From assembly GCF_000473165.1 (NCBI RefSeq), contig NZ_KI421504.1, positions 1,625,437-1,689,436 of the forward strand: a DNA stretch of 64,000 nucleotides, read 5' to 3'. A program made the translations under genes and the position numbers. The stretch comes from Leisingera aquimarina DSM 24565 (lineage in GTDB: Bacteria > Pseudomonadota > Alphaproteobacteria > Rhodobacterales > Rhodobacteraceae). Shown in pieces: positions 1 to 53,547 of the stretch; within the stretch, counting starts at the first letter, position 1; the number at the start of each line of letters is the position of its first letter. The notes beneath the pieces are model-generated. The model was not told the origin of the DNA, made no database searches, and was given only the letters and a program-made list of their open reading frames with translations.

Positions 1-431
1 GTAAATGCCATGATGCGATTGCGTCGCGTGGCGCTCACGCCGTCATCCCGCCCCGCAAGAACGCCAAGCCATGGAAGCCAACAAGCCCAGGAGCCATTGC
101 CCGAAACGAGGCCGTAAACGCTTCGCGATATCTGCGTCGCGTCCTTTGGAGGCGGTGGAGCGGATATCACCGCCGAAGCCGCGCCGAGATTTGAGGAGGG
201 TCAGAAAATGATCGGAGGGATCATTTTCCCGACGAAAGGATGCATTGCGTGAAACTGCTGGGGCAGCGCCTCTCGGCGCGAGACTTCGACAGGCAGGCCG
301 CGGAAATCCAAACCCGTATCGCCGTGCTCAACCGCTACACCGCTCTTGGCATACCCGCAACAGAGGCTATCGGGTAAGTCCTTCAGGGCAAAGGGGAAGT
401 CCGCCCGCCACCCGATTTGTGCAACAAAGCC
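1..431 (+). mobile_element. IS5-family insertion sequence, 3' fragment (transposase C-terminus and right inverted repeat)
   Basis: Reading from position 3, the frame gives an IS5/IS903-type transposase C-terminus (AHAVIPPRKNAKPWK, RRWSGYHRRSR), stops at 192-194, and resumes in frame from about 240 as MHCVKLLGQRLSARDFDRQ to a stop at 375-377. Between the two parts lies a hairpin insert (192-236) that carries the stop. The sequence GATTTGTGCAACAAAGCC at 414-431 matches the terminal inverted repeat I recall for this IS group and marks the right end, directly against formate dehydrogenase sequence. The left part is outside the window. The transposase is inactive as read. Confidence 0.85.
192..236. 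repeat. Hairpin insert H1 (family B) in IS5 transposase
   Basis: Perfect 10-bp stem GAAAATGATC (204-213) and GATCATTTTC (219-228) round a 5-nt loop. The arms, GAGGAGGGTCAG on one side and TTCCCGACGAA on the other, are the same as in the insert at 53502-53547 read on the other strand. It separates the RAE and MHCVKLLG parts of a conserved transposase block and brings in a TGA stop. Confidence 0.85.
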
Positions 432-723
432 ACGCGAGGTTAAACAGGGCGACTGGATCAAGCTGGCCTCGCGCTCGGGCGAAGCCACCCTACGGGCAGA
501 ATTGACCGACAGGGTGAGCCCTGGCGTGGTCTACACAACCTTTCACCACCCGGATACGCAGGCCAACGTCATCACCACCGATTTCTCGGACTGGGCCACC
601 AATTGCCCTGAATACAAGGTAACAGCTGTGCAGGTGAGCCTGTCGAATGGCCCTACCGACTGGCAAGAGGATTATGCATCCCGGCCCCAGCGGTCGCGGC
701 GCATCCTGCCTGCAGCGGAGTAA
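432..723 (+). pseudogene. fdhF: Formate dehydrogenase alpha subunit, C-terminal remnant
   Basis: From about 432 the frame reads GDWIKLASRSGEATLRAELT, then GVVYTTFHHPDTQANVITTD and DWATNCPEYKVTAVQVS. This is the characteristic C-terminal molybdopterin-dinucleotide-binding end of the NAD-dependent formate dehydrogenase catalytic subunit (FdsA/FdhF). Only about 95 of some 920 residues remain, because an IS5 element has replaced everything upstream. The stop at 721-723 is the natural one, since fdhD begins two bases later, which is the usual fds operon order. The enzyme would oxidise formate to CO2 in the cytoplasm; this copy cannot. Confidence 0.85.
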
Positions 724-724
724 T

Positions 725-1396
725 ATGATGGCGCTCTGCTCAAGCCAAAGCCAGCCCGGCCTGTCTGTCCAGTGCGACGGGCAGTGCCCGGTGCTGCGCA
801 GTCTGCCCGAAGAGCTGCCGGTTGCCATGGTGTTCGAAGGCAGCACCCAGGGGGTCATGATGGCAACGCCTCAGGATATTGAGGACTTCGCCATGGGCTT
901 CGCTCTCAGCGAGGGCAATGTGCGGCATCTGGGCGAAATCCGTGAATTTGAATCCGCCGAGCATTCCGGCGGCATCGAGGCCCGGATCTGGCTGCCGCCG
1001 GAACGCGCCGCGGCACTGAAGGCACGGCGCCGGGCGATGATGGGGCCGGTGGGCTGCGGGCTCTGCGGCATCGACAGCCTGGACCAGGCCCTGCGCCCTC
1101 TGCCGGTGTTGGCTTCGGGTGGCCCGGAATTCAGTGCAGATGAAGTTGCCCGGGCGGCGGATGAATTGCGCAGCCACCAGCCCCTGCACGATCAGACCCA
1201 TTCTACCCACGCGGCGGGGTTCCTGCTGCCGGGTCAAGGCATTGTCATGGCACGGGAAGGACGTTGGACGCCACAATGCGCTGGACAAGCTGGTCGGGGC
1301 GCTGGCCCGCGCCAGAACGGAACCGGCGTCCGGCGCCTTTGTGCTGACCAGCCGAGTTTTGGTCGAGATGGTGCAGAAAACCGTGATGGCCGCCGC
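725..1396 (+). pseudogene. fdhD: Formate dehydrogenase accessory sulfurtransferase FdhD, frameshifted and truncated
   Basis: FdhD moves sulfur from IscS to the molybdenum cofactor of formate dehydrogenase. The frame from ATG 725 shows the family core: RSLPEELPVAMVFEG, TPQDIEDFAMGFALSEG and the sulfur-carrying Cys pair in GPVGCGLCGID. Near 1257-1260 one extra G shifts the frame: the first frame leaves the family after IVMAREG, while the next frame continues DVGRHNALDKLVGAL, SGAFVLTSRV and EMVQKTVMAA. Similarity then stops near 1396, before the expected C-terminal CPVLVAVSAPT-type segment. It follows the fdhF remnant, so the whole locus is decaying. Confidence 0.85.
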
Positions 1397-1547
1397 CCGC
1401 TGCGGAAAGATACAGGGGATCTTGCCGGTTCACTCAATCTGCAGCTTTCAGAACGCAGCGCCCTGCAGTGAGCAAGGCCCTGTTCTCTCGACAAAGCACC
1501 GGAAAGCGACAATAGTCCAATACCGCGCCCATAGAAGAGCGGCAGGT

Positions 1548-2906
1548 ATGACAAATACAGATATGGCAAGGCTGGCCGACCCGCTCAGTCAAGCAAGCAT
1601 CCTCATCGTGGACGATGAGCCGGGCATGCGCAATTTCCTGGTGAAAACCCTGCGCCCCCTGTGCCAGCTGGTGGATGAGGCCGACAACACCGAAGCCGCG
1701 GCTGCCCTGCTCAATACCCGGCAGTATGATGTGATGATCCTCGACAACATCATGCCCGGCCAGAAAGGACTGGACTGGCTGGAGCAGCAGCGGCGGGAGG
1801 GCGGCTTCACGGATACCATCCTAATTACCGCCTATGCCGATCTGCAGACGGCGATCGACGCGCTGCGGGCCGGGTCGTCGGATTTCGTGCTGAAGCCTTT
1901 CCGCTCGAACCAGATCCTCAATGCCCTGCGCCGCTGCATCGAAACCGCCCGGCTGAAGCGCGAAAACATGCTGCTGCGGCGGGAGCTGGAAGTTACTGGA
2001 GTAGGGCGCCGGCGCCGCCGCGAGCTGGTCGGAACCTCGCCCGCCGTCAGCCAGGTGCGGGCCCTGCTGGACCGGATGGCACAGGTCGCTACCCCGGTGC
2101 TGATCACCGGCGCCTCCGGCACCGGCAAGGAGGTTGCCGCACGCCACCTGCATGCGCTGTCCAGCCGCGCCGGAGCGCCTTTCGTGCCGGTTCAATGCGG
2201 CGCCATTCCGGCGGATGTGATCGAATACGAACTGTTCGGCCACGCTCCTGGCGCCTTTCCCGGTGCGCCTGCGGGCCGCGAGGGCCTGCTGGCTTCGGCG
2301 CAGGGCGGCACCGTTTTCCTCGATGAAATCGGTGAACTCAGCACTTCGGCGCAAAACGCGCTGCTGAGGGTGCTGGAGGATGGCCGGATCCGCCCGATCG
2401 GCACGGAGCGAACGGTGCAGCTCGATGTCCGCTTTGTGATGAGCTCGAGCCGCCCGCTGGCCGAGGCGGTGGCCGCGGGAAATTTCCGCGAGGATTTGCT
2501 GTTCCGCATCAACGTGATCGAAGTGCCGATGCCGCCGCTGCGCGAACGCGCCACTGACATTGTCGAGCTTGCCGAACTGTTCCTCGCAGAAATCGCTGCC
2601 CAGCTGCAGCTGCCGCCGCTGGAGCTGTCCGCCAGCGTCAAATCCGCCCTGCTGCGCCATGACTGGCCAGGCAACATCCGCGAGCTGCGGAATTTCGTTG
2701 AGCGCTCGCTGATCTTCGGCAGCTTTTCCCTGGACACGCTGGCCCCGGCCCGTCCCGCTGCTGACATCCTGCCGCTGGAGGAGGTCGAACGCCGCGAGAT
2801 CCTGCACGCGCTGGAGGCCGCAGACGGCAACCGCAGCGAAGCGGCGCGGCGGCTGGGTGTCTCGCGCAAGACCATTGACCGCAAATGCGCGGCCTGGGGG
2901 CTCTGA
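1548..2906 (+). CDS. NtrC-family sigma-54-type response regulator (DctD-like)
   Basis: A 452-residue transcription activator. An N-terminal receiver domain has the phosphoacceptor Asp at about residue 66 (MILDNIMPG). The AAA+ domain has Walker A GASGTGKE at about 188-195, Walker B GTVFLDEIG at about 254-262 and the FREDLLFRIN block. A Fis-type helix-turn-helix ends the protein (GNRSEAARRLGVSRKTIDRK). The sigma-54 contact loop reads GAFPGA at about 235-240 instead of GAFTGA, which may weaken sigma-54 use. I chose ATG 1548 because the longer frame upstream runs through fdhD debris. The gene ends 3 nt before the partner kinase, so they form an operon. The probable target is the OxlT-like carrier downstream. 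Confidence 0.88.
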   Translation: MTNTDMARLADPLSQASILIVDDEPGMRNFLVKTLRPLCQLVDEADNTEAAAALLNTRQYDVMILDNIMPGQKGLDWLEQQRREGGFTDTILITAYADLQTAIDALRAGSSDFVLKPFRSNQILNALRRCIETARLKRENMLLRRELEVTGVGRRRRRELVGTSPAVSQVRALLDRMAQVATPVLITGASGTGKEVAARHLHALSSRAGAPFVPVQCGAIPADVIEYELFGHAPGAFPGAPAGREGLLASAQGGTVFLDEIGELSTSAQNALLRVLEDGRIRPIGTERTVQLDVRFVMSSSRPLAEAVAAGNFREDLLFRINVIEVPMPPLRERATDIVELAELFLAEIAAQLQLPPLELSASVKSALLRHDWPGNIRELRNFVERSLIFGSFSLDTLAPARPAADILPLEEVERREILHALEAADGNRSEAARRLGVSRKTIDRKCAAWGL

Positions 2907-2909
2907 GCC

Positions 2910-4874
2910 GTGCGCAGGCTGCATTCGCTGATGCGGTCGGTCCGGGTCCGGCTGCTGCTGATTGCGCTGCTGCCGATGCTGGTGCTGATGCCGCTGCTGC
3001 TGGGCATTGCCACGTGGCGCTGGTCGGAAAAGACCGACGGCCTTCTGATCACCAAGGTGAACGGTGATCTGACTATTGCCGACCAGTATCTGGCCAGGCT
3101 GACCGCCACCTCGGGCGAGCTGCTGGATGCAGTGGCGCAATCGGTGCGTTTCAGCAGTGCGTTCATGGCGGGCAGCACCGCAGATTTCCTGGCGCAGGAA
3201 CAGGCCCGGCTCGGTCTCGATTTCCTCTATCTGGCGGGCCCCGGCGGCCGTGCCGGTTTCCCTCCCGCAGACTGGCCCGTCATCCGCAGCGCGCTGCAGG
3301 GGCAACGGCAAAGCGCGGTCGACATTCTGGACGCCGCCCAGCTTGAGGCACTGGCCCCCGGCCTCGCAGTCCGCGCCGCCATCCCGCTGGTGGCGACCGA
3401 AGCGGCAGTCCCCACGGACCGCACCGCCGAGACCCGCGGCATGATCATCCACTCCGCGGCTCCGGTAGCCCTGCCGGACGGCCAGCCGGCGGTGCTGGTG
3501 GGCGGGCGGCTGTTGAACCGCAACCTGGATTTCATCGACACCATCAATGCGCTGGTCTACCGCGCGCAAAGCCTGCCGGAGGGCAGCCAGGGCACCGCCA
3601 CGCTGTTTCTGGAGGACGTGCGGATCTCCACCAATGTGCGGCTGTTCGAAAACGTGCGCGCGCTTGGCACCCGGGTCTCGGCCGAGGTGCGCGGCCAGGT
3701 GCTGGGGCGCGGCGACGTCTGGCTCGACCGGGCTTTCGTTGTGAATGACTGGTACATCTCCGCCTATGAACCGATCCTGGACAGCCGCGGCAACCGGGCC
3801 GGAATGCTCTATGTCGGTTTTCTGGAAACCCCGTTCCGCCAGGCCAAGCGCAGCACGGTGCTGACGCTCGGCGGGGCCTTCCTGCTGATCGCGGCGCTGT
3901 CGGTGCCGATTTTCCTGCGGTGGGCCGGGCGCATCTTCCGCCCGCTTGAGGGCATGACCCAGACCATCGCCCGGGTCGAGCAGGGCGACATGGCCGCCCG
4001 CAACCGCCCGCAGGAAGGCGGCGGCGAAATCGCCCGCGTGGCGGCGCATTTGGACAGCCTGCTGGATCAGGTCCAGGAGCGCGACCAGCAATTGCGCGGC
4101 TGGGGTGAAAGCCTGGAGGCCAAGGTCGAGGAGCGCACCGCGGATCTGCGCGAGGCAAACCAACGGCTGGAGCGGACCACCGAACGGCTGATCGTCTCGG
4201 AGAAACTGGCCGCGGTCGGCGAAATCACGGCGTCCGTCGCGCATGAGATCAACAACCCGGTAGCGGTAATTCAGGGCAACCTGGATCTGGCCCGCACGGT
4301 GCTGGGCAGCCACGCGGAACCGGTCGAGGAGGAATTCCGGCTGATCGACGATCAGGTCTACCGCATCGGGGTGATCGTCTCCAAACTGCTGCAATTCGCC
4401 CGGCCCGAGGAATACTCCGGCGCCGCCGGGCTGATTTCCCCGGCTGAAGTGGTGGCTGACTGCCTGGTGCTGACCCGCCATCAGATCGAGGCCACCGGGA
4501 TCAAGGCAGAGGCGCATCTGGCCAGTACCGGCCAGGTCAGGATATCGCGCACGGAATTGCAGCAGGTGATCGTCAATCTCATCCTGAATGCGGTTCAGGC
4601 GATGCCCGGAGGCGGCCGCCTCACGCTGAGCGCTGAGGATGCCCCGGACGGTGTGCTGCTGACCGCCGAAGATACTGGCACGGGCATCCCCGCGGACCTG
4701 CTGAACCGCATCTTCGACCCGTTCTTCACCACCAAGCAAGCGCAGGGAACCGGTCTGGGGTTGTCGATCAGCCATCAGCTGGTGAGTCGCGCCGGCGGCC
4801 GCATCACCGTGCAGTCAGAGGCGGGGCAGGGCACCCGGTTCGAAATTTTTCTTCCCGCGCCTGCCAGCGCCTGA
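2910..4874 (+). CDS. Membrane sensor histidine kinase with periplasmic cache-type domain
   Basis: 654 residues from a GTG start 3 nt after the regulator stop. There is a membrane segment at about residues 14-34, a periplasmic region of about 280 residues with a cache-like fold (AFVVNDWYISAYEPILDSRG near the end), a second membrane segment at about 315-338, then HAMP and a coiled coil. HisKA has phospho-His at about 445 (SVAHEINNP), and the ATPase domain has N box NLILNAVQAMP, G1 DTGTGIP and G2 GTGLGLSI. The order matches DctB-type kinases that sense organic acids. The ligand cannot be read from the sequence; the neighbour suggests a small dicarboxylate or formate/oxalate. Confidence 0.88.
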   Translation: MRRLHSLMRSVRVRLLLIALLPMLVLMPLLLGIATWRWSEKTDGLLITKVNGDLTIADQYLARLTATSGELLDAVAQSVRFSSAFMAGSTADFLAQEQARLGLDFLYLAGPGGRAGFPPADWPVIRSALQGQRQSAVDILDAAQLEALAPGLAVRAAIPLVATEAAVPTDRTAETRGMIIHSAAPVALPDGQPAVLVGGRLLNRNLDFIDTINALVYRAQSLPEGSQGTATLFLEDVRISTNVRLFENVRALGTRVSAEVRGQVLGRGDVWLDRAFVVNDWYISAYEPILDSRGNRAGMLYVGFLETPFRQAKRSTVLTLGGAFLLIAALSVPIFLRWAGRIFRPLEGMTQTIARVEQGDMAARNRPQEGGGEIARVAAHLDSLLDQVQERDQQLRGWGESLEAKVEERTADLREANQRLERTTERLIVSEKLAAVGEITASVAHEINNPVAVIQGNLDLARTVLGSHAEPVEEEFRLIDDQVYRIGVIVSKLLQFARPEEYSGAAGLISPAEVVADCLVLTRHQIEATGIKAEAHLASTGQVRISRTELQQVIVNLILNAVQAMPGGGRLTLSAEDAPDGVLLTAEDTGTGIPADLLNRIFDPFFTTKQAQGTGLGLSISHQLVSRAGGRITVQSEAGQGTRFEIFLPAPASA

Positions 4875-7317: not shown

Positions 7318-8673
7318 CGGATGGAGTGGATGGCTCCTGCTCCCCCGGCGTCGCAATGCGCCATAATGCAGTTGTCATGGCCTGCCAGGAGAGGAGCCAC
7401 CCTATGACAGTTAAAACAGTCGGCCTGGATTTGGCCAAGGATGTGTTTCAGGTTCACGGAATTTCCGAGAATGGACGCGTGATTTTCAAGAAGACAATTA
7501 GGCGGGCGAAGCTGCTGACATTTTTCGAAACCCTGCCGCGCTGCACCGTTGGCATGGAAGCGTGCGGATCGGCACATTACTGGGGCCGTGAGCTGCGCAA
7601 GCTCGGGCACGATGTCCGCCTGATGCCAGCGTTCTATGTCAAACCTTATGTGAAGCGCGGCAAGACCGATGCGGTTGATGCTGAGGCGATCTGCGAAGCA
7701 GTCCGGCGGCCATCAATGCGGTTTGTTGAGATAAAGTCGAAGGACCAACAGGCATTCCTTACCGTGCATCGCACCCGCGACCTCGTGGTCCGGCAGAGAA
7801 CTCAGGTTGTAAACACGATCCGTAGCATCCTGCGAGAATTTGGGCATGTTCTGCCGGCAGGCGTAGAAGCCGTGAACCGCTTTTCGCAAAGCCATATGGA
7901 TGGGGATCAATTGGACATGCCCGAGTTAGCCAACGGTATTCTGGGAACGCTGTGCTATCAGCTGCTGGGGCTCAATGCGCGGATCGACGGATACACCCAG
8001 CTCATCAAACGACATGCGTTGCTTGACGCAAACTGCCGCCGCCTGACGCGCATACCGGGTGTCGGGCCAATTACAGCGTCAGCCATGGTCGCGACAATTG
8101 GCGACGGGCACCAGTTCAGAACTGGTCGGGATCTTGCTGCATGGCTGGGCTTGACCCCGCGCAACAAGTCCAGCGGTGGCAAAGAGAAGCTCGGCAAGAT
8201 CACGAAAATGGGCGACAGGTACCTCCGCAAGTTGCTGGTCGTTGGTATGACGTCGCGCGCCTTGCAAGCCAAAACCCATCCCGAGCGCGCCGACCGGTGG
8301 ACCGCTAATATCCTCGTACAAAAACCATTCCGGCTGGCGACCATTGCGATGGCCAACAAGTCAGCGCGGGTTATCTGGGCAATTCTGACAAAAAAACAGA
8401 ACTACCGGCAGCCCGTCGCATAACGCGGCAGCGCCGCCACGAGATGCAAGACGAAAGAAGTGATGACGCGGAACAAGTCAACCAAGAGCCAGGACACTCC
8501 GGCGAATGGCGTGAACCTCAGAGTTCGTTAACCCGATTGGAACCTCGCTTGCGGAACACATCAGGGCCAGCAGTATTTTGAAAATGCTGCGCAAACAGGC
8601 CGGACAGACGACTGTACTGACAGACCACCGTTGAAGTCACAATAAACTCTTGCAATGCAGGAGCCATCCGCAG
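7318..8673 (+). mobile_element. IS110-family element (copy 1) inserted in IS3 OrfB
   Basis: The limits are fixed by the split IS3 gene: the host codons for HEWL stop at 8674 and resume at 7317. Near the two ends are perfect 13-bp subterminal inverted repeats GGATGGCTCCTGC (7328-7340) and GCAGGAGCCATCC (8657-8669), as in IS1111-like members. The transposase is followed by about 230 bp of noncoding right end, whose inner part (8545-8600) is similar to 52655-52715, the right end of copy 2. Confidence 0.85.
7404..8423 (+). CDS. IS110-family transposase, intact
   Basis: 339 residues. The N-terminal RuvC-like DEDD domain is intact (TVGLDLAKDVFQVHG, GMEACGSAHYWGREL, KTDAVDAEAICEA). The C-terminal transposase_20 domain has the helix-hairpin-helix IPGVGPITASAM and the catalytic Ser region KSSGGKEKLGKITKMGDRYLR. 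I chose ATG 7404 since GAGGAG lies about 9 nt upstream and the protein then starts just before the DEDD motif; the open frame reaches further up into the IS end. No hairpin insert is present, so this may still be an active enzyme. Confidence 0.88.
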   Translation: MTVKTVGLDLAKDVFQVHGISENGRVIFKKTIRRAKLLTFFETLPRCTVGMEACGSAHYWGRELRKLGHDVRLMPAFYVKPYVKRGKTDAVDAEAICEAVRRPSMRFVEIKSKDQQAFLTVHRTRDLVVRQRTQVVNTIRSILREFGHVLPAGVEAVNRFSQSHMDGDQLDMPELANGILGTLCYQLLGLNARIDGYTQLIKRHALLDANCRRLTRIPGVGPITASAMVATIGDGHQFRTGRDLAAWLGLTPRNKSSGGKEKLGKITKMGDRYLRKLLVVGMTSRALQAKTHPERADRWTANILVQKPFRLATIAMANKSARVIWAILTKKQNYRQPVA

Positions 8674-9352
8674 AAGCCATTCGTGCCGGACCGTCCGGTT
8701 GCAGCGCTCGACATAGGCGTTCTGCTGGGGCTTTCCGGGCTGGATGCAGGCCAGGGTGATGCCCCGGTTCTCGGCCCATTCCATGAGGGTGCCACTGACG
8801 TATTCCGGGCTGTTGCCGGCTCGAATTGTCCCAGGGGCACCACGCCATTCGATGATCTGGTTCAGGGCTCGAACAACCCGTTCCGCAGGCAGTGAAAAGC
8901 CGATCTCAATGCCCAACCCTTCGCGGTTGAAGTCGTCCAGAACGTTCAGCAGCCGGAATTGCCCTCCACCCCCCAGCCTGTCGGCCATGAAGCCCATCGA
9001 CCGGACCTCATTCGGGGCCTCAGGCACAGCCAGTTCGTCCGGCTTTTCCCGCTTCAGACGCTTGCGCGGCTTGATCCGCAGGTTCAGCTCCAGCTCGCGG
9101 TAGATCCGGTAAACCCGCTTGTGGTTCCACCTATGACCCTGCACGTTGCGCAGATACAGGAAACACAGGCCAAAGCCCCAAGTCTTTCTTGCAGCCGTCA
9201 GGCCGCGGAGCAAGTCGGCGATTTGCTCGTTCTCCTCGTCCAGTTCCGGGCTGTACCGATAGCACGTCTCACTGACATCGAATGCCCGGCATGCCAGCGC
9301 TATGCTGACGCCCTTCATCGCCACCGCTTTCACGGCCAACTCTCGGCGTTGA

Positions 9353-9394
9353 CCCTCTCGGGACATTGCTTCGCAATGCCCTGCCGGGCAATGG
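9353..9394. repeat. Hairpin insert H2 (family A) at the OrfA/OrfB junction of IS3
   Basis: The arm CCCTCTCG (9353-9360), stem CATTG (9364-9368) and CAATG (9374-9378) with loop CTTCG, then the arm CTGCCGGGCAATGG ending 9394. Same outer arms as the inserts in IS91, IS1182 and the second IS5. Confidence 0.85.
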
Positions 9395-9533
9395 ATGGCC
9401 GGATCGTTCGATCCTTCTCTCGAACCAGTGGCGTTCAGGATCTTGCTTATCCGAGCGCCTCCTTCAGCAGGTCGTTCTGCATGCTGACGTCAGCGTACAT
9501 GCGCTTCAGCCGCCGGTTCTCCTCGGCCATCGC

Positions 9534-9577
9534 CGCTCGCCATTGCCCTCGGATCAATGGCGGACAAAGGCTCGCTC
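9534..9577. repeat. Hairpin insert H3 (family C) in IS3 OrfA
   Basis: Perfect 8-bp stem CGCCATTG (9538-9545) and CAATGGCG (9555-9562) round a 9-nt loop, followed by GACAAAGGCTCGCTC. The same stem and right arm recur at 51884-51927. Confidence 0.85.
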
Positions 9578-9641
9578 TCACTGATGAGACTGGCGTCCAT
9601 GCCGCCGTACTTCGCTCGCCACTTGTACAGCGTGGCGCTGG

Positions 9642-9688
9642 TTCGGCGGGGAATTGATCCACTGGATCAATTCCTATTCCACCTCACT
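9642..9688. repeat. Hairpin insert H4 (family B) in IS3 OrfA
   Basis: Perfect 10-bp stem GAATTGATCC (9651-9660) and GGATCAATTC (9664-9673) with a 3-nt loop. On the gene strand it enters between GGG and ACC codons (REHG and TSATLYKW), the same junction as H18 in the unrelated IS5 element. Confidence 0.85.
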
Positions 9689-10025: not shown

Positions 10026-10527
10026 CTCGTATCTGAACGAAATCGCTTGTGCTGGCATCGATGGCCAGCTCAGCTGCACCGAGGTTTGCAAAGACCTACT
10101 GTAACATTTCACGCGCTCGGTCATCACCTTCTCAAAAATCTGACTGGGCAGCCTTGCCAGGACGGCCCGGTTAATCCGTCCAGCAGGGATCGTTTGCTGC
10201 GTAGCAGCCGTTCAAGGGCAATGCGGCGAATGCCTCAGATGAGCCCATTCCGTGGAAAAACACCCGTTCGCGGGCGCAGAATATGGGCGCCGGAAAAGAG
10301 CGTGAGCGCCTTTCTTATCAGGCTTTCTTCGGTTGCCGCGGTGCGGGAATGACCTTGGCCAGTTTGCGGAGGTTTTGGGCGGTGGCGGCGAGGAGGAATT
10401 CGTCGTTTGCGCCGCATGGGCCGCGTAATCGGAGCCGACTGAGTCCAAGGATACGCTTGAGGTGGGCGAAGAGCATCTCGACCTTCTTGCGCAGCTTCAT
10501 TGAGATGATGTATTGGTCGGTCTTCGC

Positions 10528-10564
10528 CCCTCTCGTGCATGTAAACATGCACTGCCGGGCAGTG
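10528..10564. repeat. Hairpin insert H5 (family A) in IS1182 transposase
   Basis: Exactly 37 bp between codons ATC and GCG (RDI and AKTDQYI) on the gene strand. Stem TGCATGT (10536-10542) and ACATGCA (10545-10551). The arms are CCCTCTCG and CTGCCGGGCAGTG. Confidence 0.88.
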
Positions 10565-11407
10565 GATGTCGCGAGCGACTTGCCGCGCGTCTTCATGCTC
10601 CTCTCGGGTGATCGACCGGAAGTCCATGTTAGGGCAGCAACGAGACTTCGAAGGGCAGGCCTGGCACGTGTGCTTTAGGCACCGGTATTTCGCGACGCCC
10701 TTTCTGGTCGGCCCTCGGTTCGGATCGGAATAGTTCCGGCGGAATTGCTTCAGTTCGTGGCGTTCCGGGCAGATGTATTGATTGTTCCCGGCATCCCACT
10801 CGAAGTCCGCGCGGGTCCAGGTTCCGTCGCTGCGCCCCGACTTGTCGAAGACGGGGATGTGCGGGACGATCTTGCGGTCGACCAACCAGCCAAGCATCGG
10901 CGCGGTGCCATAGGCGGTGTCTGCGATCAGGCGCTCAGGGTGGAGGTCGAACCTGGCCTTCACGCGCGCGAGCATGGTCTTGGTCGACCCAACTTCGGCT
11001 TGGCGGATTGATCTCGTCGCCTCCGCGTCCACGATGACGCCGTGGTCCGTGTCGATCAGGTAATTGTCGGAATAGCTGAAGAAGGCCGGACCCTTGCGGG
11101 CTGCGGTCCATTGGCTGGCAGGGTCGGAATGGGACGTAAACTTTGGCTGAACCTCGCTGGCCGCGCCGAAGGCAGCCTCGTCCAGGGTGTCGAGATACTC
11201 ACGGACCGCCCGAGGCGCATCGGCGGGATCGATCTGCCTGACGTCCCATTCTTCCTTAGGCGTAGAATTTTGCTTGTTGGCATCGGCTTCGATCAGGCTG
11301 GCATCGATGGCCATGCGCTGCCCGCTGACCAGACCCTCTTCGATACACCGCGCGACGGTTGTCTCGAAGAGATGCCGCAACAGTTCGCTGTCACGGAACC
11401 GGCCATG

Positions 11408-11447
11408 TATTACCCGGCAGGCGATTGCGAAGCAATCTGCCGAGAGG
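11408..11447. repeat. Hairpin insert H6 (family A) in IS1182 transposase
   Basis: 40 bp between codons CGC and CAT (FSKNR and HGRFRDS). Inner stem GATTG (11423-11427) and CAATC (11433-11437) with loop CGAAG, and outer stem CGGCAG (11415-11420) and CTGCCG (11437-11442). Opposite orientation to H5 relative to the gene. Confidence 0.88.
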
Positions 11448-11462
11448 GCGGTTCTTGGAGAA

Positions 11463-12716
11463 GGTTCTCTGATTGCGGCTATGTCAACGGAAGTTCGCAT
11501 TGTCACTGTGGGGCATAGTTCTCTCCGAGGTCGATCTGCCTTCCGTCCCACAGGGACTTTGCTTCCTACCGGCTCCGGCGGGATTTTAGCTCAAGTAGTG
11601 GCCTCCTTTGTCCAATGGAATTCTTCGCCAGTCTTCCAAAGTGTCAGCATGAGTACAGCCAGTTTGCGGGCTGTCGCGACAGCGGCCTTTTTGAAGCCTC
11701 GCCTCGCCGCTAGGCGGACAGCCCAAGACTTCAACGGTGAATATCGCTTCACACGATTGATCAATGTACTGGCCACTTCGTACAGCAGGCGACGCATGGC
11801 GGCATCGCCTCTTTTGGATATTCGGCCAGAGTAGTCGACCTCACCGGACTGATATCGTCTCGGCGTTAGGCCCACGAACGCTCCGACATTTGCAGTCTTT
11901 GGAAACCGCTCGGTGTTCTCGATGAGTGCCAGAAAGCTCAACGCAACAACCGGTCCGATCCCAGGGATCGTCATCAAACGACGAGACAGATCATGGCGTT
12001 TGGCGATAGCAGTAATCTCAACCTCGAGCGCAGCCGCCGCTGCGCATATGGCTTCATGCGAGGGAAGAACATGATCAATGATTACGGCTAGCGCCGGGTC
12101 GGACTGCCGCGCAATTGATAGCTGATCTCTGAAGCGCTGTCTTTGCCGCCCATTTCCGATTGCTGTCAGGCGAATGCCGAATGTCTCAAGGATCCCCCGC
12201 GCATGCGCCTCAAGCTCCATTCTGAGACGCACAAAACGATCGCGGGCACCAATGATTGTCCGGAGGCGGTCAGCGTCTTCGCTGCGGACGTGAACGGCAG
12301 TAAACCAGCCGATCCGGGCCAATTGCGCCAATCCTTCCGCGTCGGAACGATCAGACTTGTTAAGCTTTGCTGATAGCACCTTGTGGGCCGACCGCGCATC
12401 GATACAGATGGCGGGTAGCCCCAAGTCTTCAAGTTGCCGCTGAAGCCAGATCGATATCTGGCCGCTTTCATGCACGATCCTCTCAGGCATCAACTTCTGC
12501 TCTTCCAAAGCATCCCGTACGGCTAGCGGACAAAAGGGCAAGCTCTTCCGAAAGACAACGCTGCCATCGTCATCGACAACACACATGGAAATCTCTTTCA
12601 AAGAAACATCCAAACCTGCAAAATACTTCATGGTCGTTCTCCTCACGGCTTATATCCATGAGGCCAGGCTACTGGACCTCGCTCGCCACCGGAGAGCGGC
12701 CGCCGCAATCACATCA
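11463..12716 (-). mobile_element. IS110-family element (IS902-like) inserted in IS1182
   Basis: Its limits are inferred from the split IS1182 gene: the host sequence CTTGGAGAA ends at 11462 and TGTCGAGTG resumes at 12717. The 1254-bp insert carries one intact transposase on the minus strand. No target duplication is evident, as expected for IS110. The end repeats were not resolved. Confidence 0.8.
11591..12631 (-). CDS. IS110-family transposase, intact
   Basis: 346 residues from ATG 12631, chosen because GAGGAG lies just upstream (a slightly longer start at 12646 would overlap that site). The DEDD domain has MKYFAGLDVSLKEISMCVVD, HESGQISIWLQRQL and NKSDRSDAEGLAQLARIGWF. The C-terminal domain has IPGIGPVVALSFLALIENTE, RYQSGEVDYSGRISKRGD and the catalytic Ser region. 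No frameshift or hairpin insert, so probably functional. It is a close relative of the broken copy at 13180-14191 but only distantly related to copies 1 and 2. Confidence 0.87.
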   Translation of the reverse strand: MKYFAGLDVSLKEISMCVVDDDGSVVFRKSLPFCPLAVRDALEEQKLMPERIVHESGQISIWLQRQLEDLGLPAICIDARSAHKVLSAKLNKSDRSDAEGLAQLARIGWFTAVHVRSEDADRLRTIIGARDRFVRLRMELEAHARGILETFGIRLTAIGNGRQRQRFRDQLSIARQSDPALAVIIDHVLPSHEAICAAAAALEVEITAIAKRHDLSRRLMTIPGIGPVVALSFLALIENTERFPKTANVGAFVGLTPRRYQSGEVDYSGRISKRGDAAMRRLLYEVASTLINRVKRYSPLKSWAVRLAARRGFKKAAVATARKLAVLMLTLWKTGEEFHWTKEATT

Positions 12717-13179: not shown

Positions 13180-14191
13180 ATGGATTACTTTGCCGGGTTG
13201 GATGTCTCAATGGAAGAGACCCATATTTGCATCTTGGATCGCGAAGGTACTTTGATCCGGGAAGGGAAAACCCAAACGTCGCCAGTTGCGATAGCAGAAT
13301 TCTTGGCCGCTGGACCTGACTGTAAGGACGCGGTGTTTGAGACCGGCAGAATGGCTCCCATGCTGTATCACGGCCTCACAGAGCGCGGCGTTCCTGTGCA
13401 ATGCATTGAAAGCAGACAGGCCTACCAGGCGCTCAAATCGCTGGCAGGGCATAAGACGGATAGGAACGATGCGCGCGGTTTGGCCCACTTGGCTCGGACC
13501 GGCTTCTACAAACCGACCCACGTCAAATCCCTGCCTGCTCATGCAGTCCGGTCCCTTATCGCAGCTCGCAAAAAGTTAGTCGGGCAGCGCGTGACGATTG
13601 ATAATCATATCCGCGGCCTAGTGGTCGTGTTTGGTGTGCGGCTGCCTCGAGCCTTGTCGCCTGCGTTCAAGGATGCGGCACTGAAAGTCAGCGATGGTGT
13701 CCCCGGCTTGCATGCTGCGCTACGTGGGCTCTTTGCAGCGCGAAGCTATTCTGACAGCCGTGTCCGCCATCGACGCCGACATCAAGAAGATGACTCGAAA
13801 ATCTGACGTTTGCCGACGTTTAATGACAGTGCCGGGCGTCGGCCCAATAACTGCGCTGGCCTTCGCGGCCGCTATTGACGATCCATCGCGCTTCAAGAAA
13901 TCGCGTGACGTGGGAGCGTATCTCGGGCTCGTGCCGCAGCGGCATCAGTCCGGCGAAATTGATTACACGGGCAGCATCACAAAACGTGGAGATGTCAAAG
14001 TGCGGACGCTCCTCTATGAGGCGGCAAACGTCATGCTCACCAGATGCACGGCTCCGATCAAACTGAAATCGTGGGCGCTCGGCATTGCGGCCCGCTCAAC
14101 AATGCGCAAAGCCAGAGTCGCCTTGGCTCGGCGGCTCGCGATAATTCTTCACGCCATCATGCGCGACCATACCAAGTTCAAAGCAGCCTGA
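13180..14191 (+). pseudogene. IS110-family transposase, frameshifted
   Basis: The N-terminal half from ATG 13180 (MDYFAGLDVSMEETHICILD, HKTDRNDARGLAHLARTGFY) runs to about 13735. The frame then shifts by one base and the C-terminal half continues ILTAVSAIDADIKKM, VPGVGPITALAFAAAIDDPS and RHQSGEIDYTGSITKRGDVK to 14191. A GAGG ribosome site precedes the start. Joined, the two halves give a normal length of about 337 residues, so a single indel has inactivated it. It lies beside the IS1182 start. Confidence 0.82.
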
Positions 14192-19184: not shown

Positions 19185-20696
19185 ATGCTCGAAGGACTCC
19201 TGATTGGCCTGCAAACGGCCCTTTCGTTCCAAAATCTTTTAATGGTGATCGGCGGCTGCCTGATTGGCACGTTTATCGGAATGCTGCCGGGGCTGGGGCC
19301 GATGTCGATCATCGCCATCATGATCCCTGTGGCCATTTCAATGGGTGATCCCTCGGCGGCGCTGATCCTGCTGGCAGGCGTTTATTATGGCGCAATCTTT
19401 GGCGGTTCGACGTCCTCAATCCTGCTCAATGCTCCGGGTGTGGCGGGCACAGTGGCCTCCAGTTTCGACGGCTACCCGATGGCCAAGCAGGGCAAGGCAG
19501 GCAAGGCGCTGACGATTGCCGCGATCGCCAGCTTTGCGGGTGGCAGCATCGGAGCATTGTTGCTGATGATCTTTGCGCCCGCCCTGTCCACGGTGGCGCT
19601 CTTGTTCCATTCTGCTGAATATTTTGCGCTGATGGTTGTTGGCCTTTCGGCCATTGCGGCCTTTGCGGGCACCGGACAAGTCGCCAAAGCACTGATGATG
19701 ACCACACTAGGGCTGATCATGGCCACAGTCGGTGAAGGTGCGCTATTCAACCTGCCGCGTTTCACCATGGGGATCATGGACCTGCAGTCCGGCTTTGGCT
19801 TCATCACCTTGGCGATGGCCATGTTTGCGCTGCCTGAAGCCCTGTTTTTGGTGCTGAACCCCAAAGCCCAGGCTGGCAAAGGCGAAGAAATTAAAGAGCT
19901 GCGCGTCACCCGCCAAGAAGCGAAATCCATCGCCCCGGTCATTGGCCGCCAGTCCCTGCAAGGGTTCTTCATCGGGGTTCTGCCCGGTGCGGGTGCGACA
20001 ATTGCAAGTTTTCTGGGCTACGCGGTGGAGCGCAATATTGCCTCCAAGGAGGAACAGTCAGAGTTTGGTAAGGGATCAATCAAAGGGCTGGCGGCACCGG
20101 AAACCGCTAATAACGCCGCCTGCACCGGGTCCTTTGTGCCGCTGCTGACGTTAGGCATTCCGGGTTCTGGCACAACCGCAATCCTGCTTGGCGCACTCAT
20201 TGCGCTCAACGTCACCCCTGGACCGAGGCTGATGATCGACGAGCCGCAGATTTTCTGGGCGGTGATCATGTCGATGTTCATCGGCAACCTGGTCTTGCTG
20301 GTCCTCAACCTGCCGTTGATCCCCTATATCGCCAAAGTACTAGCAATCCCGCGCAACTATTTAATCCCCTTCATCCTTTTCTTCACCTTGATGGGGGCCT
20401 ACATCGGTCAGAACAACGCAACTGAGCTGTTGCTTCTGGTGGCTTTCGGGATCTGCGCCACGGCCTTGCGCTTTGCAGATTACCCTTTGGCTCCGCTGTT
20501 GATCGGATTCATCCTCGGCGGCATGCTGGAAGACAATTTCTCCCGCTCAATGCAGCTCTATGACGGTATCGCATTCATCTGGGAACGTCCCATGACCCTT
20601 GGTTTGTTGGTGATTGCCGCCTTGCTGGTTATTCTGCCCAGCTACCGTAACCGGCGAGCCCGGTTGCGGGCGCAAGGGGTCGCGGATGGGGATTGA
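19185..20696 (+). CDS. tctA: TctA: tripartite tricarboxylate transporter large membrane subunit
   Basis: 503 residues with about 10-12 membrane segments. The TctA signatures are clear: CLIGTFIGMLPGLGPMSIIA near residue 30, YYGAIFGGSTSSILLNAPG near 70 (ATG 19185 numbering), and LTLGIPGSGTTAILLGAL near 330. ATG 19185 is preceded by CGGAGG, overlapping the end of tctB. The open frame begins further up inside tctB. It forms the permease with TctB and works with the TctC binding protein using an ion gradient. Confidence 0.9.
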   Translation: MLEGLLIGLQTALSFQNLLMVIGGCLIGTFIGMLPGLGPMSIIAIMIPVAISMGDPSAALILLAGVYYGAIFGGSTSSILLNAPGVAGTVASSFDGYPMAKQGKAGKALTIAAIASFAGGSIGALLLMIFAPALSTVALLFHSAEYFALMVVGLSAIAAFAGTGQVAKALMMTTLGLIMATVGEGALFNLPRFTMGIMDLQSGFGFITLAMAMFALPEALFLVLNPKAQAGKGEEIKELRVTRQEAKSIAPVIGRQSLQGFFIGVLPGAGATIASFLGYAVERNIASKEEQSEFGKGSIKGLAAPETANNAACTGSFVPLLTLGIPGSGTTAILLGALIALNVTPGPRLMIDEPQIFWAVIMSMFIGNLVLLVLNLPLIPYIAKVLAIPRNYLIPFILFFTLMGAYIGQNNATELLLLVAFGICATALRFADYPLAPLLIGFILGGMLEDNFSRSMQLYDGIAFIWERPMTLGLLVIAALLVILPSYRNRRARLRAQGVADGD

Positions 20697-21807: not shown

Positions 21808-22320
21808 CGGACCGGGGCGGTGCCCCGCCCGAGGCTTGAAATCGCTGACATCTTTCGCGCCCATGGTCCCGCATGGCGGCGGGCCAATGCCGGGCATGTC
21901 AGCCTCACCCAGCTCAGGGTGATGTCGGCGATCGAAGCCTGCCGGACCGAGGCGCTCGGCGGGCATGTGGCCGCCTGCGCCAAGTGCGGCCACCGGCACG
22001 TCGCGTACAATTCCTGCAAGAACCGGCACTGCCCGAAGTGCCAGGGGCCCGCGGCGCGGGACTGGATGGCGGCGCGGGCCGATGACCTGCTGCCGGTGGA
22101 GTATTTCCACGTGGTCTTCACCCTGCCGACGGAGATCGCACGGATCGCCTACTGGAACAAGAAGGCGGTCTACGGCCTGTTGTTCCGAGCGTCAGCCGAG
22201 ACCGTGGCGACTATCGCCGCCGATCCCCGGCATCTTGGCGCCCGTGTGGGCATGACCTCTGTACTTCATACCTGGGGTTCGGCGCTGACCCACCACCCGC
22301 ATGTCCACATGATCGTGCCC

Positions 22321-22361
22321 CCTCCCGGCAGATTGCTGCGCAATCGCCTGCCGGGCAACGG
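22321..22361. repeat. Hairpin insert H7 (family A) behind the HUH motif of IS91 transposase
   Basis: About 41 bp net. Inner stem GATTG (22331-22335) and CAATC (22341-22345) round CTGCG; the outer arms CCCGGCAG and CTGCCGGG also pair. Confidence 0.87.
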
Positions 22362-22737: not shown

Positions 22738-22781
22738 CACCACTGCCCGGCAGTGCATTGCGCAGCAATGTCACGAGAGGG
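22738..22781. repeat. Hairpin insert H8 (family A) in IS91 transposase
   Basis: Stem CATTG (22756-22760) and CAATG (22766-22770) round CGCAG. It is inverted relative to H7 and H9. Net 42 bp, so it adds 14 codons (APLPGSALRSNVTRGR in place of two residues) without shifting the frame. Confidence 0.87.
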
Positions 22782-22848
22782 AGGATGAAGGTGATGCGGC
22801 TCAAGACCGGCGAATTCATCCGCCGGTTCCTGCTGCACGTCCTGCCCC

Positions 22849-22892
22849 CTTTCGGCAGATTTGGCGCGGCCAAATCGCCTGCCGGGCAATGG
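22849..22892. repeat. Hairpin insert H9 (family A) in IS91 transposase
   Basis: Perfect 8-bp stem GATTTGGC (22858-22865) and GCCAAATC (22869-22876) with a 3-nt loop. Arms TTTCGGCA and CGCCTGCCGGGCAATGGG. About 44 bp net, which shifts the frame. Confidence 0.87.
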
Positions 22893-28897: not shown

Positions 28898-29023
28898 CTC
28901 CCGCCTGTTCGGGGCAATTTGAAAACTGCCCTCACAGTTGGGCGTGGCCCGGCGCCGTGGCGCCGGGCCACGCCCAAGGCTGCCAGCGGCACTGGCAAAG
29001 CCGGTGCCGCGCGGGCGCGGGAG
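28898..29023. repeat. Composite intergenic palindrome, copy 1
   Basis: The outer inverted repeat CTCCCGC (28898-28904) and GCGGGAG (29017-29023) encloses a perfect 17-bp stem, GGGCGTGGCCCGGCGCC at 28940-28956 with its complement at 28959-28975 and a 2-nt loop, followed by AAGGCTGCCAGCGGC. It lies between convergent genes and would make a strong two-way terminator. Related sequences are at 30617-30725 and 43893-43966. Confidence 0.75.
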
Positions 29024-30658: not shown

Positions 30659-30698
30659 TTGGGCCCGGCCCGGTGCCGGGGCGCCGGGCCGGGCCCAA
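30659..30698. repeat. Composite intergenic palindrome, copy 2 (core stem)
   Basis: A 17-bp stem, GGGCCCGGCCCGGTGCC at 30661-30677 pairing with 30680-30696 (one G-T), flanked by TT and AA and followed by GGCCGCCAGCGGC, as in copy 1. It sits between convergent pseudogenes. Confidence 0.7.
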
Positions 30699-39560: not shown

Positions 39561-39603
39561 CCCGCCGGAGGTGCTTGCTTTGCGGGCAGGAGCCTCCGGC
39601 GGG
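39561..39603. terminator. Hairpin between dgcN and dgcA
   Basis: Perfect 11-bp stem CCCGCCGGAGG (39561-39571) and CCTCCGGCGGG (39593-39603), then AGTATTTTTG. It may partly terminate or shape the message between the two genes. Confidence 0.75.
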
Positions 39604-39701
39604 AGTATTTTTGAAAAGATGAAAGCGCCGGAGCCGGATTTTCCGGGCGTCCGGCTGAGGTTAGCCGCCAGTTGCGGAGAACCGGTGGAAAGGGCTGCTT
39701 C

Positions 39702-49018: not shown

Positions 49019-49043
49019 GGCGCCGGAGCTTTCGAATTCAAAG

Positions 49044-49069
49044 AAGGCCGCTCCATCCGGGGCGGCCTT
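49044..49069 (+). terminator. Terminator after rplT
   Basis: AAGGCCGC and GCGGCCTT round a 10-nt loop, then TTCTTG. Confidence 0.85.
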
Positions 49070-49249: not shown

Positions 49250-50010
49250 TCACCCTGCTAACATCGCATCAATCTCGGCCGTGCTTGCCGCCCCCTTCAG
49301 GATCGTGAAATCGCCCCGTTCCAGCATCGCACTGGTGCCATCCAGGACACCTGCTGGGTGACGCGGGCCAGCCCACGCCGATGGAAATCCGGGCGGGACC
49401 CAGTGCACCAATTTCATCTGTTGTGAGATCGCGCATCGCACCCGCGGCCAGCAGATTGACGGGTGTGCCTGTGGCGGCAAGCGCGCGGGTGGTTCCGGCA
49501 TCTACCAGCGGGGCGTACATCACATCTGCACCTGCTTGGGCGAACGCGTGGCAGCGGCGCAGCGCCTCGGCTAGTTCATAACTATTCATGAGCCAGCCAT
49601 CAGCGCGGGCAGTCAGCACGATCCCCGCAGCCTCTATCCGTGCCAATGCCGGATCAAACGGATTGGAATTTGTCCCCGGGACAGCCGTGTCTTTCACCGA
49701 AACCCCAGAAAGCCCGGCCTCTGCTGCCAGTTTCACAGTCTCGGGATCGTCTCCGAAACCGTTTTCGAAATCGCGGTTCACCGGCACGTCGACCGATGCG
49801 CAGATACTGGCAGCGTGCTGCAGGGCGATGTCGCGCGTGATCTGGCGGCCATCGGTCAGGCCCAGCGTGACGCCATACCCTGAAGGTGTTGTCGCCTGCG
49901 CCTGCGCACCTGGCTGCGCCATTGTCTTTGCTGATCAAATATACCAGGGGTTTGGTATCACTGCCGGTTTGCCCGGGACGTAAAGGGCGCGGCATCGATC
50001 CGTCAACTCG
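49250..50010 (-). pseudogene. Isocitrate lyase/PEP-mutase-family protein, decayed
   Basis: The N-terminal fragment (about 50010-49935) reads CRALYVPGKPAVIPNPW and then a stop where WDIGSAK is expected. The middle part reads GYGVTLGLTDGRQITRDIAL, SVDVPVNRDFENGFGDDPET (the metal and catalytic region), GVSVKDTAVPGTNSN and IVLTARADG. Near 49370 the frame shifts, and the C-terminus ends SAMLERGDFTILKGAASTAE in another frame at 49250. The family cleaves or rearranges C-C or C-P bonds of 2-oxo acids. It lies at the edge of the second IS island. Confidence 0.8.
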
Positions 50011-50732
50011 TAGCGGCGCAAAGCCTGCTCCTCTCTCCGATTGGCCGAAGTGCTGCTCACTATAGCCGATGGGGTGGATGGCTCCTGCTCGAACCGGCGC
50101 CGCAATGCGCCATGATGCAGTTGCCTGCTGCAAGAGGAGCCGCCCAATGCAGGTTGCAACAGCCGGCCTTGATCTGGCCAAGAACATCTTTCAGGTTCAC
50201 GGGATTGCCCCAGAAGGGAACATAGTCTTCAATCGGCCGCATCGGCGCCCGCAGGTTCTGTCCTTTTTTGAGCGTTTGGAGCCATGCCTGATCGGAATCG
50301 AAGCTTTCGGCACCAGTCATTGCCGGGCGCGCGAACTGACGCGGCTGGGCCACGATGTGCGGCTGATGCCGCCCATGCATGTCAAGCCGTACGTCAAGCG
50401 AGGCAAATCAGACGCCATCGATGCGGCGGCAATCTGCGAGGCGGTGACCAGGCCCTCCATGCGGTTCGTCGAAGTCAAATCCACTGATCAACGGGCGCTC
50501 CTGTCATTGCACCGTGCGCGAGACTTGATTGTTCGCCAACGGACTCAGTTGATCAATGCGCTGCGCAGCCTACTGGCCGAGTTCGGCGTCTGCATCGCCC
50601 GCGGACTGGCACGGGTGATCAGTTTTGCCGAAGGCGTGGTTGAAGGTACAGACCTTGGGCTGCCTTCCGTCGCGCAGGACGTGATCCGTAACCTGTCCCA
50701 GCAATTGAGAACCCTTCATAGCCAGGTTCGCT

Positions 50733-50767
50733 GGCAGGAGGCAGGAGGCAGGAGGCAGGAGGCAGGG
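50733..50767 (+). repeat. 7-bp tandem repeat (GGCAGGA, five units)
   Basis: Four perfect units and one with a changed last base lie inside the transposase gene. A change of three units (21 bp) keeps the frame; other changes would switch the gene off. Confidence 0.9.
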
Positions 50768-51191
50768 CTGCGGCTGGAAGCCAAACGCGATGCGCGGGTT
50801 CAGTTGTTGCAGACCATCCCGGGTGCCGTCGCGGTGACGGCTTCGGCGATTGCTGCAGCCATTGGTGGTGGCCCTCAGTTCAGAAACGGCCGCGAATTCG
50901 CCGCGTGGCTCGGCCTGACGCCTGCCAACAAGTCGAGCGGCGGAAAGGAGCGATTGGGCAGGATCACCAAAATGGGCGGCCAGTATCTGCGGCAGTTGCT
51001 GGTTGTCGGCATGACCTCTCTGGTCCGGCAGACACGGTCCCATCCCAACCGTGCCAGCAAGTGGCCGACAGCGCTGCTCGAGCGTAAACCAGCCCGCGTG
51101 GCGGCCGTGGCGATGACGAACAAGACGGCCCGGATCCTTGAACCGCCCCGGGTTTGCCGGAGGCTTCACCTCCTGATTAGGATGAAGCCAC

Positions 51192-51929
<738 letters not shown>

Positions 51930-51957
51930 TGATGCCTATGCCCGCAAGATCGCCGGC

Positions 51958-52004
51958 CCCCTCCCGGCAGATCTGGCATGGCCAAATCGCCTGCCGGTCA
52001 ATGG
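51958..52004. repeat. Hairpin insert H13 (family A) in IS3 OrfB
   Basis: Stem GATCTGGC (51970-51977) and GCCAAATC (51981-51988), one mismatch, arms CCCTCCCGGCA and CGCCTGCCGGTCAATGGG. It lies between RKIAG and the RVST block. Confidence 0.85.
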
Positions 52005-52108
52005 GTCGTGTCAGCACCCCGGCGCATGCCGGGTTCGTTCTCGATGCTCTGGAGCAGGCTGTTCACGAGCGGCGGCCGGCAAAGGCGATGGGGCTTGTTC
52101 ACCACTCC

Positions 52109-52154
52109 GGCCGCCGTTCTCGGCGATGCTCGCATCGCCTGTCACGCAGTGGGT
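52109..52154. repeat. Hairpin insert H14 (family A, short-stem variant) in IS3 OrfB
   Basis: Stem GGCGATGC (52122-52129) and GCATCGCC (52132-52139), arms GTTCTC and TGTCACGCAGTGGGTCAGC. It splits the second catalytic motif of OrfB. Confidence 0.85.
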
Positions 52155-53054
52155 CAGCCAATACCTGTCGATCAAATACACAGAGCGGTTGGGAGAAGCT
52201 GGTATCGAGCCCTCTGCCGGCAGCGCCGGAGACAGTTGCGACAATGCCTTGGCCGAGACGATCAACGGCTTGTTCAAGGCCGAGGCCGTTCACCGCCGCG
52301 GCCCTTGGCGCAACTTCGAGGCAGTGGAATACGCAACACTCGAATGGGTGGACTGGTTCAACAACCGCCGTCTGCTTGAGCCTGTCGGGAACATTCCGCC
52401 GGCAGAAGCAGAGGCCGATTTCTACGCCGCCCTGGAAACTGAGGACATTGCCGCGCAACTAACTGAAATCAGCCTCCGGCAAACCCGGGGCGGTTCACGT
52501 CCGGGCTGTTCTGACAAGGAAAGAGCCTTATTCGCCAAGGGCTGTCTGAACCCAATTGAGAAACACGAGTTAGCAAGACCTGCGAGATGATGGTGCAACG
52601 GTCAGCCGCAACAATCAGGACACCTCGCCGAATGTCTCGGGCGTCCTTGCCCGCTAAGCCGAATGGGACCTGGTTTGCGGAACCCATCAGGGCCAGCGGC
52701 CGAATACCGCGCAAACAGATCCCATGATTAGGGGCAGGATTCATAACCAGTAAATGACTAACGCCGCGCGGGCGATTGCTGACAGGAATACCTCGGGGCA
52801 CCTGTCGCAGCGTGTTGCGGCGCGCCTGCAGTCCTTGAGCCTGCCGGACATGATCTCGATACGGTTGCGCCGCTTGTAGCGGCGTTTGCCGTATTTCACA
52901 GGCTTCTTGCGCTGCTTTCGACCGGGGATACAGCCGCGCTCCTTTGTCTTTTAACGCTTCTCTGAACCCGCCGGCGTCATAGCCGCGGTCCCCAAGCAGC
53001 CAACCGGCTTTTGGCAAGCTGCTTAGCAGCGCCCGCGGCCGATGTCGTCGCTGA

Positions 53055-53095
53055 CCCGCCGCCTGACAGGCGATGTTTGCATCGCCGAGAAGGGG
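53055..53095. repeat. Hairpin insert H15 (family A, short-stem variant) in IS5 transposase
   Basis: Stem GGCGATG (53069-53075) and CATCGCC (53080-53086). On the gene strand the arms TTCTC and TGTCAGGCGGCGGGTCAGC match H14 closely, although the host gene differs. It interrupts ITAG / VSD. Confidence 0.85.
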
Positions 53096-53180
53096 CCCGG
53101 CGGTGATAAACAGGCTGAGCGGCCGGCCCTGGCGGTCGCAGATGGCATGCAGCTTCGTGTTCATGCCGCCTTTGGTCCGG

Positions 53181-53224
53181 CCCCTCTCGGGACATTGCTG
53201 CGCAATGCCCTGCCGGGCAAGGGA
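53181..53224. repeat. Hairpin insert H16 (family A) in IS5 transposase
   Basis: Stem CATTG (53193-53197) and CAATG (53203-53207) round CTGCG, arms CCCTCTCGG and CCCTGCCGGGCAAGGG. It follows KKGGVDA and brings in a stop. Confidence 0.85.
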
Positions 53225-53296
53225 TCAGGCGTCCACGCCCCCCTTTTTCACGCCCGTACCGGTCGCTGTCCGATGGGCTTTCAGATAAGTTGCGTC

Positions 53297-53334
53297 CACT
53301 GCCCGGCAGTCGAAACGCAGTTTCGATGAGAGGG
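53297..53334. repeat. Hairpin insert H17 (family A) in IS5 transposase
   Basis: Exactly 38 bp between codons ATC and GAC of the gene (KTVMI and DATYLKAH). Stem TCGAAAC (53310-53316) and GTTTCGA (53320-53326) with a 3-nt loop; arms CACTGCCCGGCAG and GAGAGGG. Confidence 0.88.
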
Positions 53335-53501
53335 GATCATCACAGTCTTCTCTTCCCTGTGACCGGAGGCCGGCCCGTCCGTCATTCGAGCGAAGATGCC
53401 TTTCTCGCTCCAGCGCTTCCACCGGCTGTAAAGCGTTCACCGGGCTGACCGTATTCAGCAGGAGCGTCCCGCCAGCGCAATCCATTGCGGTTGATGAAGG
53501 T

Positions 53502-53547
53502 TCGTCGGGAAAATGATTCACTGGATCGTTTTCTGATCCTCCTCACT
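53502..53547. repeat. Hairpin insert H18 (family B) in IS5 transposase
   Basis: About 46 bp. GAAAATGATT (53509-53518) pairs with GATCGTTTTC (53524-53533) if two G-T pairs are allowed. On the gene strand it lies between GGG and ACC codons. Confidence 0.85.

Follow-up and report, generated by a model that had tools for sequence, protein, structure and literature searches.

Hairpin inserts in insertion sequences of the window

The 64-kb stretch of the Leisingera aquimarina DSM 24565 genome analysed here (hereafter, the window) contains 19 short hairpin inserts located within transposase genes of six insertion sequences (IS), namely one in IS5 fragment 1, four in IS3 copy 1, two in IS1182, three in IS91, five in IS3 copy 2 and four in IS5 copy 2 (Table 1). 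A previous sequence-only reading of this DNA recognised the same six IS but counted 18 inserts, with three in IS3 copy 1, and considered all of them to be one family with shared outer arms. Instead, the inserts fall into two families, B and A/C, with unrelated arms and a length of about 36-47 nucleotides (nt) in both. The B inserts (11 copies in the window, 2 with diverged arms) consist of CCCTCTC, a stem-loop and the right arm CTGCCGGGCARYGG, which includes a small second hairpin. The A/C inserts (8 copies, 3 A and 5 C) have the approximate layout GNGAG, stem-loop, CGARC, and the stem-loop of C encloses a nearly constant loop, CGCCATTGGTCCGAG. We tentatively combine A and C in one family because their ends are similar and both seem to replace four nt of the target. 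No Rfam family corresponds to the inserts: the only matches in the window at the gathering score are a Cis8 small RNA, ALIL and one tRNA. The ALIL match (51511-51665) represents the frameshift pseudoknot of the IS3 element rather than the C insert that lies within it.

Table 1. Hairpin inserts of the window, with positions counted from its first nucleotide
Insert	Host element	Position	Strand	Remarks
A	IS5 fragment 1, transposase	191..237	+	
B	IS3 copy 1	9352..9394	+	host gene on - strand, insert antisense
C	IS3 copy 1	9406..9446	-	absent from the earlier count of 18
C	IS3 copy 1	9535..9575	-	
A	IS3 copy 1	9641..9687	-	
B	IS1182	10527..10565	+	net +37 relative to 98.1 % identical empty copy
B	IS1182	11407..11449	-	net +40 relative to 98.1 % identical empty copy
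B	IS91	22319..22361	+	near what we take to be the HUH motif
B	IS91	22740..22782	-	
B, 47-nt form	IS91	22846..22892	+	
C	IS3 copy 2	51261..51302	+	
C	IS3 copy 2	51608..51649	-	within the Rfam ALIL match
C	IS3 copy 2	51885..51925	-	probably two C inserts fused, segment between deleted
B	IS3 copy 2	51958..52004	+	
B, divergent arms	IS3 copy 2	52113..52152	+	
B, divergent right arm	IS5 copy 2	53056..53095	-	
B	IS5 copy 2	53181..53223	+	antisense to host gene
B	IS5 copy 2	53296..53335	-	directly before what is presumably the first catalytic Asp codon
A	IS5 copy 2	53500..53546	-	

Constant arms and variable, paired stems

The arms of the B inserts are constant, whereas the stems differ in sequence yet pair. 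A table of 102 distinct B sites, from which the likely chance matches L196 and L200 were excluded, includes 72 different stem strings between near-invariant arms. Across 51 ungapped 43-nt B copies (48 of them distinct), 98.1 % of the cells are paired, and sliding the partner strand reduces the pairing to 25-52 %. Changes on both sides of a pair account for 70 cells in these copies, compared with 22.8 ± 2.9 in shuffled sets, a value that was reached in none of the 500 shuffles; in the main B stem, 7 of the 9 pairs show such changes. The left and right arms of B do not form an inverted repeat, and no parent IS was found for them. The combination of constant arms with changing but still paired stems suggests that the folded strand is recognised through the arms.

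Empty sites, targets and reading frames

The clearest case of insertion is the IS1182 of the window, which is 98.1 % identical over 1083 nt, without any small indels, to an intact copy on a plasmid of L. caerulea (locus L076) and differs from it by two B inserts (+40 and +37), both missing in L. caerulea. Because so similar a copy lacks both inserts, B has moved recently. Likewise, the IS5 element of the Dinoroseobacter plasmid pDSHI04 and its Paracoccus counterpart (86.2 % identity) show no small indels and differ by two inserts of +41. No target duplication accompanies B in either pair. More generally, insert-free homologues of the host IS are present across genera, and the insertions occur at defined points. 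At one IS5 site, L. aquimarina and Leisingera M658 both have B inserts, with different stems, and Paracoccus and Pseudosulfitobacter have none; corresponding sites in different IS hold different stems. Judged from these comparisons, the hairpins are evidently insertions, as the sequence-only reading had proposed. An origin in place is rejected because the same arms occur in unrelated genes, and the insert-free homologues across genera rule out the insert-bearing form as the ancestral state.

The gains in the cleanest pairs (37, 40 and 41 nt) shift the frame of the host gene, and gains of 37, 38, 40, 41 and 43 nt show no fixed relation to it. Both orientations relative to the host gene occur. 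The 3' flank after the final G at the 102 B sites favours A/G, T/C, G, which yields an approximate target YC^GAY.

Copies across the L. aquimarina genome

Search of the genome with the B model produced 88 hits at an E value of up to 0.1, a lower bound because 150 of the 2426 candidates were scored. An independent pattern derived from the B arms matched 49 times, all among these 88 hits, compared with 0 matches of the reversed control pattern. The copies cluster into 32 groups, or 33 under a different rule; for 86 of the 88, the group was placed in a transposase or recombinase gene, and many families of such genes are represented. This assignment started from reading the translated flanks, after which single segments of 30 sites were checked for family hits: 26 matched families of transposases, recombinases or integrase cores (in some cases weakly or below the curated cut-off), 2 were supported by alignment with annotated transposases, and 2 (L099 and L138, accounting for 6 copies) were assigned by reading only. 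The two remaining B copies are found in one kind of intergenic-looking repeat with a GGAGTATTT..GATGAA box. This repeat, present at positions 39561-39623 of the window and at loci L130, L146 and L250, consists of a strong hairpin, after which comes GGAGTATTT..GAAAAGATGAA or a variant thereof; in the latter three loci, the hairpin bears the B arms in a 36-nt form. The repeat might be related to B or might serve as its target. The previous claim that the hairpins are confined to transposase genes is thus nearly true of this genome but fails elsewhere, where B was also found within genes for a RelE-family toxin and a DUF3768 protein, and where both B and C occur in intergenic repeats; an even spread of matches over all genes was not observed.

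Some of the insert-bearing IS have multiplied. IS5 copy 2 is represented by six complete copies in five different flanks that are 94-100 % identical and have four inserts in common. A fifth insert is retained in 4 of the 6 copies and has been largely lost from the window copy through a 41-nt deletion. The copies also share further frame breaks outside the inserts. IS3 copy 2 of the window seems to have arisen by a deletion between two near-identical C inserts, given that other copies in the genome keep both of these inserts together with the segment between them. In a separate case (C1:4200395-4200486; loci L023 and L026), a single IS5 copy has two of its B inserts side by side, with the intervening DNA rearranged as if the two had recombined.

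Four IS110-type transposase genes of the window (7400-8420, 11600-12650, 13180-14190 and 50120-51130) contain no inserts, unlike the nearby IS3, IS5, IS91 and IS1182 elements; one IS110 elsewhere (L245) does carry B. Hairpins of another type, two similar 40-bp perfect or near-perfect palindromes of the form TTGGGC...GCCCAA, are located at 28938-28977 and 30659-30698, and the Cis8 small RNA match, to the Ruegeria Cis8, is at 20220-20347.

Spread among other genomes

A profile search of the family Rhodobacteraceae, represented by nearly one genome per genus, detected B in at least 102 of the 248 genomes (E value up to 0.001), whereas in a class-wide set B is rare outside the family (10 of 289 genomes, 6 of these 10 outside the family; E value up to 0.0001). 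The family count is a lower bound because 25 candidates per genome were scored with stricter filters than in the search of the L. aquimarina genome. One B variant is present in 78 plasmid records. B inserts in an IS3 of Vreelandella (Halomonas group) and an IS256 of Cohaesibacter imply that the elements cross orders and classes.

Altogether 78 distinct B sites were delineated outside the L. aquimarina genome, among the 80 of 117 stretches that were listed and the 100 of 109 loci (L152-L260) that were taken in. Reading of the flanks combined with checks places 63 of them in transposase or helper genes of IS, including one in the non-coding end of an IS21. The others comprise two sites in accessory genes, one in the intergenic repeat (L250), the two likely chance matches (L196 and L200) and 10 without assignment. 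At L163 (1501-1543), B lies within a gene for a RelE-family toxin of a toxin-antitoxin system, and at another site within a DUF3768 gene. A beta-lactamase match of L163 in NCBIfam (E value 0.0063) is far below the cut-off and was dismissed as noise. Overall, the host genes of B belong to IS3, IS5, IS21, IS66, IS91, IS110, IS256, IS1182 and tyrosine recombinases; the Pfam tallies for segments at B sites are mostly transposase families, with DUF2169, a beta-helix and a transporter family among the rest.

The core of C, with at most one mismatch, occurs in 157 of the 248 family genomes, a count that includes chance matches, compared with roughly 45 for a reversed control counted by eye. Of 24 distinct C-core sites in the fetched loci, four look non-coding (L302, two in L306, and L307), L299 is without assignment, and the remainder were read as transposase genes.

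Comparison with known elements

Palindromic elements inside genes are already known, and the inserts share features with several of them but are set apart by their arms and length, by stems that vary freely, by insertions that shift the frame and by their occurrence in many transposase families. Our literature searches, which covered open-licence papers in PubMed Central (PMC), returned no description of the elements, and the arm and stem strings matched no paper, in agreement with the previous statement that no described element is known to have this habit. The palindromic elements of Rickettsia (RPE) and Wolbachia (WPE) similarly reside within coding genes of Alphaproteobacteria. However, RPEs are about 150 bp long and are reported from unrelated metabolic genes, where they frequently form in-frame fusions (PMC10969869), whereas B and A/C are 36-47 nt long, reside in transposase genes and, in the cleanest pairs, which contain no small indels, shift the frame. 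Miniature inverted-repeat transposable elements are likewise small and non-autonomous and are thought to spread in trans, but the B arms are not mutual inverted copies, and the target-site duplication expected of such elements is missing from the IS1182 and Dinoroseobacter IS5 pairs. A preference for conserved positions is typical of group I and group II introns and inteins, and group II introns also favour mobile DNA; the inserts, however, are far too short for self-splicing and occur in both orientations. Another comparison is with the bypass elements (byps) of Magnusiomyces mitochondria, which are short hairpin inserts of similar size within genes. By analogy, the inserts might be excised from the mRNA or passed over by ribosomes, leaving a working transposase, and the multiplication of insert-bearing IS copies would fit. 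We nevertheless regard this possibility as extremely improbable given that the inserts occur in both orientations rather than one, that the gains have no fixed relation to the frame, and that IS5 copy 2 does not keep its frame, its copies having further breaks in common outside the inserts.

The repetitive extragenic palindromic (REP) sequences and the REPINs built on them, including the GTAG- and CGTC-tagged types, resemble the inserts as short dispersed hairpins without a gene of their own, and B is, like them, a short imperfect palindrome in many copies. REPs sit mainly between genes. Intragenic cases are, nevertheless, described in PMC3733652. Movement of the inserts by a REP-associated tyrosine transposase (RAYT) or another Y1 transposase would be compatible with their size and hairpin shape as well as with the positive, if weak, association between Y1 and B: Y1_Tnp matches were found in 26 of the 248 family genomes including L. 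aquimarina, namely 18 of the 102 where B occurs and 8 of the 146 where it does not (Fisher p 0.003). This association may reflect the IS load. On the other side, no Y1_Tnp match was obtained in 84 of the 102 genomes with B, none of the three Y1 genes of L. aquimarina is flanked on both sides by B or A/C arms, inspection by eye revealed no GTAG tag in B and no constant CGTC in A/C, and the inserts combine constant arms with freely varying stems and, in the case of B, are assigned to genes in 86 of 88 copies. We therefore consider a REP/RAYT-like origin very improbable.

Origin and maintenance of the inserts

We consider it probable that B and A/C are two families of ultra-short, non-autonomous palindromic mobile elements for which IS serve both as a shelter and as a vector. 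Acting in trans, an enzyme would recognise the single strand, once folded, through its constant arms and join it into DNA at short targets, approximately YC^GAY without duplication in the case of B and with replacement of four target nt in the case of A/C. The inserts would persist mainly in transposase genes because disrupting one copy of a transposase causes little damage and the insert-bearing IS, probably moved in trans, would still be amplified and passed between species, thus serving as a vehicle. Residence in IS can result from survivorship combined with such vectoring, from targeting, or from both. Survivorship by itself, whereby the elements insert without preference, disappear from useful genes and remain in redundant, spreading IS, is quite possible, if short of probable: purging is expected from needed genes, and the exceptions named above are accessory genes, but non-coding DNA should then hold many copies, whereas by raw counts only 2 of 88 lie outside transposase or recombinase genes, both in one kind of repeat. 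These counts would fit targeted insertion, in which an active system puts hairpins into transposase genes, often at the codons of catalytic residues, so as to silence mobile elements or to home on motifs that transposases conserve. Each of the 11 B copies of the window falls within the transposase spans as drawn by us, which hold 145 of the 694 YCGAY motifs, and about 11-12 of the 33 B site clusters of the genome are, by eye and without a statistical test, within a few codons of what we take to be catalytic residues of IS5, IS66, IS256 and IS3; the different stems at corresponding sites of different IS fit as well. Nevertheless, targeting appears unlikely to us. The insert-bearing IS have multiplied, which would make for poor silencing; the RelE, DUF3768 and intergenic sites are exceptions; Asp codons match YC^GAY regardless; and no such system was found. 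The specific proposition that Rhodobacterales possess a hairpin-writing system that prefers genes for transposases and recombinases from many unrelated families, places palindromes of about 40 nt there, often at catalytic codons, and serves homing or defence is, in our view, similarly doubtful.

Several observations weigh against mobile elements sheltered and carried by IS. No gene is linked to B or A/C and neither an enzyme nor a source element was found, just as the sequence-only reading had seen no transposase belonging to the hairpins, and Y1 is commoner in B-bearing genomes. A single enzyme does not explain why two unrelated arm families have the same habit, and a survival filter acting on random insertion predicts more B copies outside transposase genes than were counted. 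Small indels divide the gap where the paired sequences are more diverged, and 5 of the 30 gap lines are multiples of three. The replacement of four target nt by A/C comes from seven cases read by eye against diverged homologues, and four A/C inserts (191-237, 9406-9446 and 51608-51649 of the window and one in Paracoccus, L080) cannot be cleanly read. Finally, given its additional frame breaks, the way in which IS5 copy 2 was amplified can only be surmised.

If B and A/C are indeed mobile elements of this kind, they would constitute a widespread class of very small mobile DNA housed in the transposase genes of other mobile elements. Their presence offers a reason why many transposases of Rhodobacteraceae read as broken and why some IS copies are internally rearranged, and the dated insertions together with the many sites provide starting material for finding the enzyme that inserts hairpins. 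Should targeting prove true, it would represent a new way of holding mobile elements in check.

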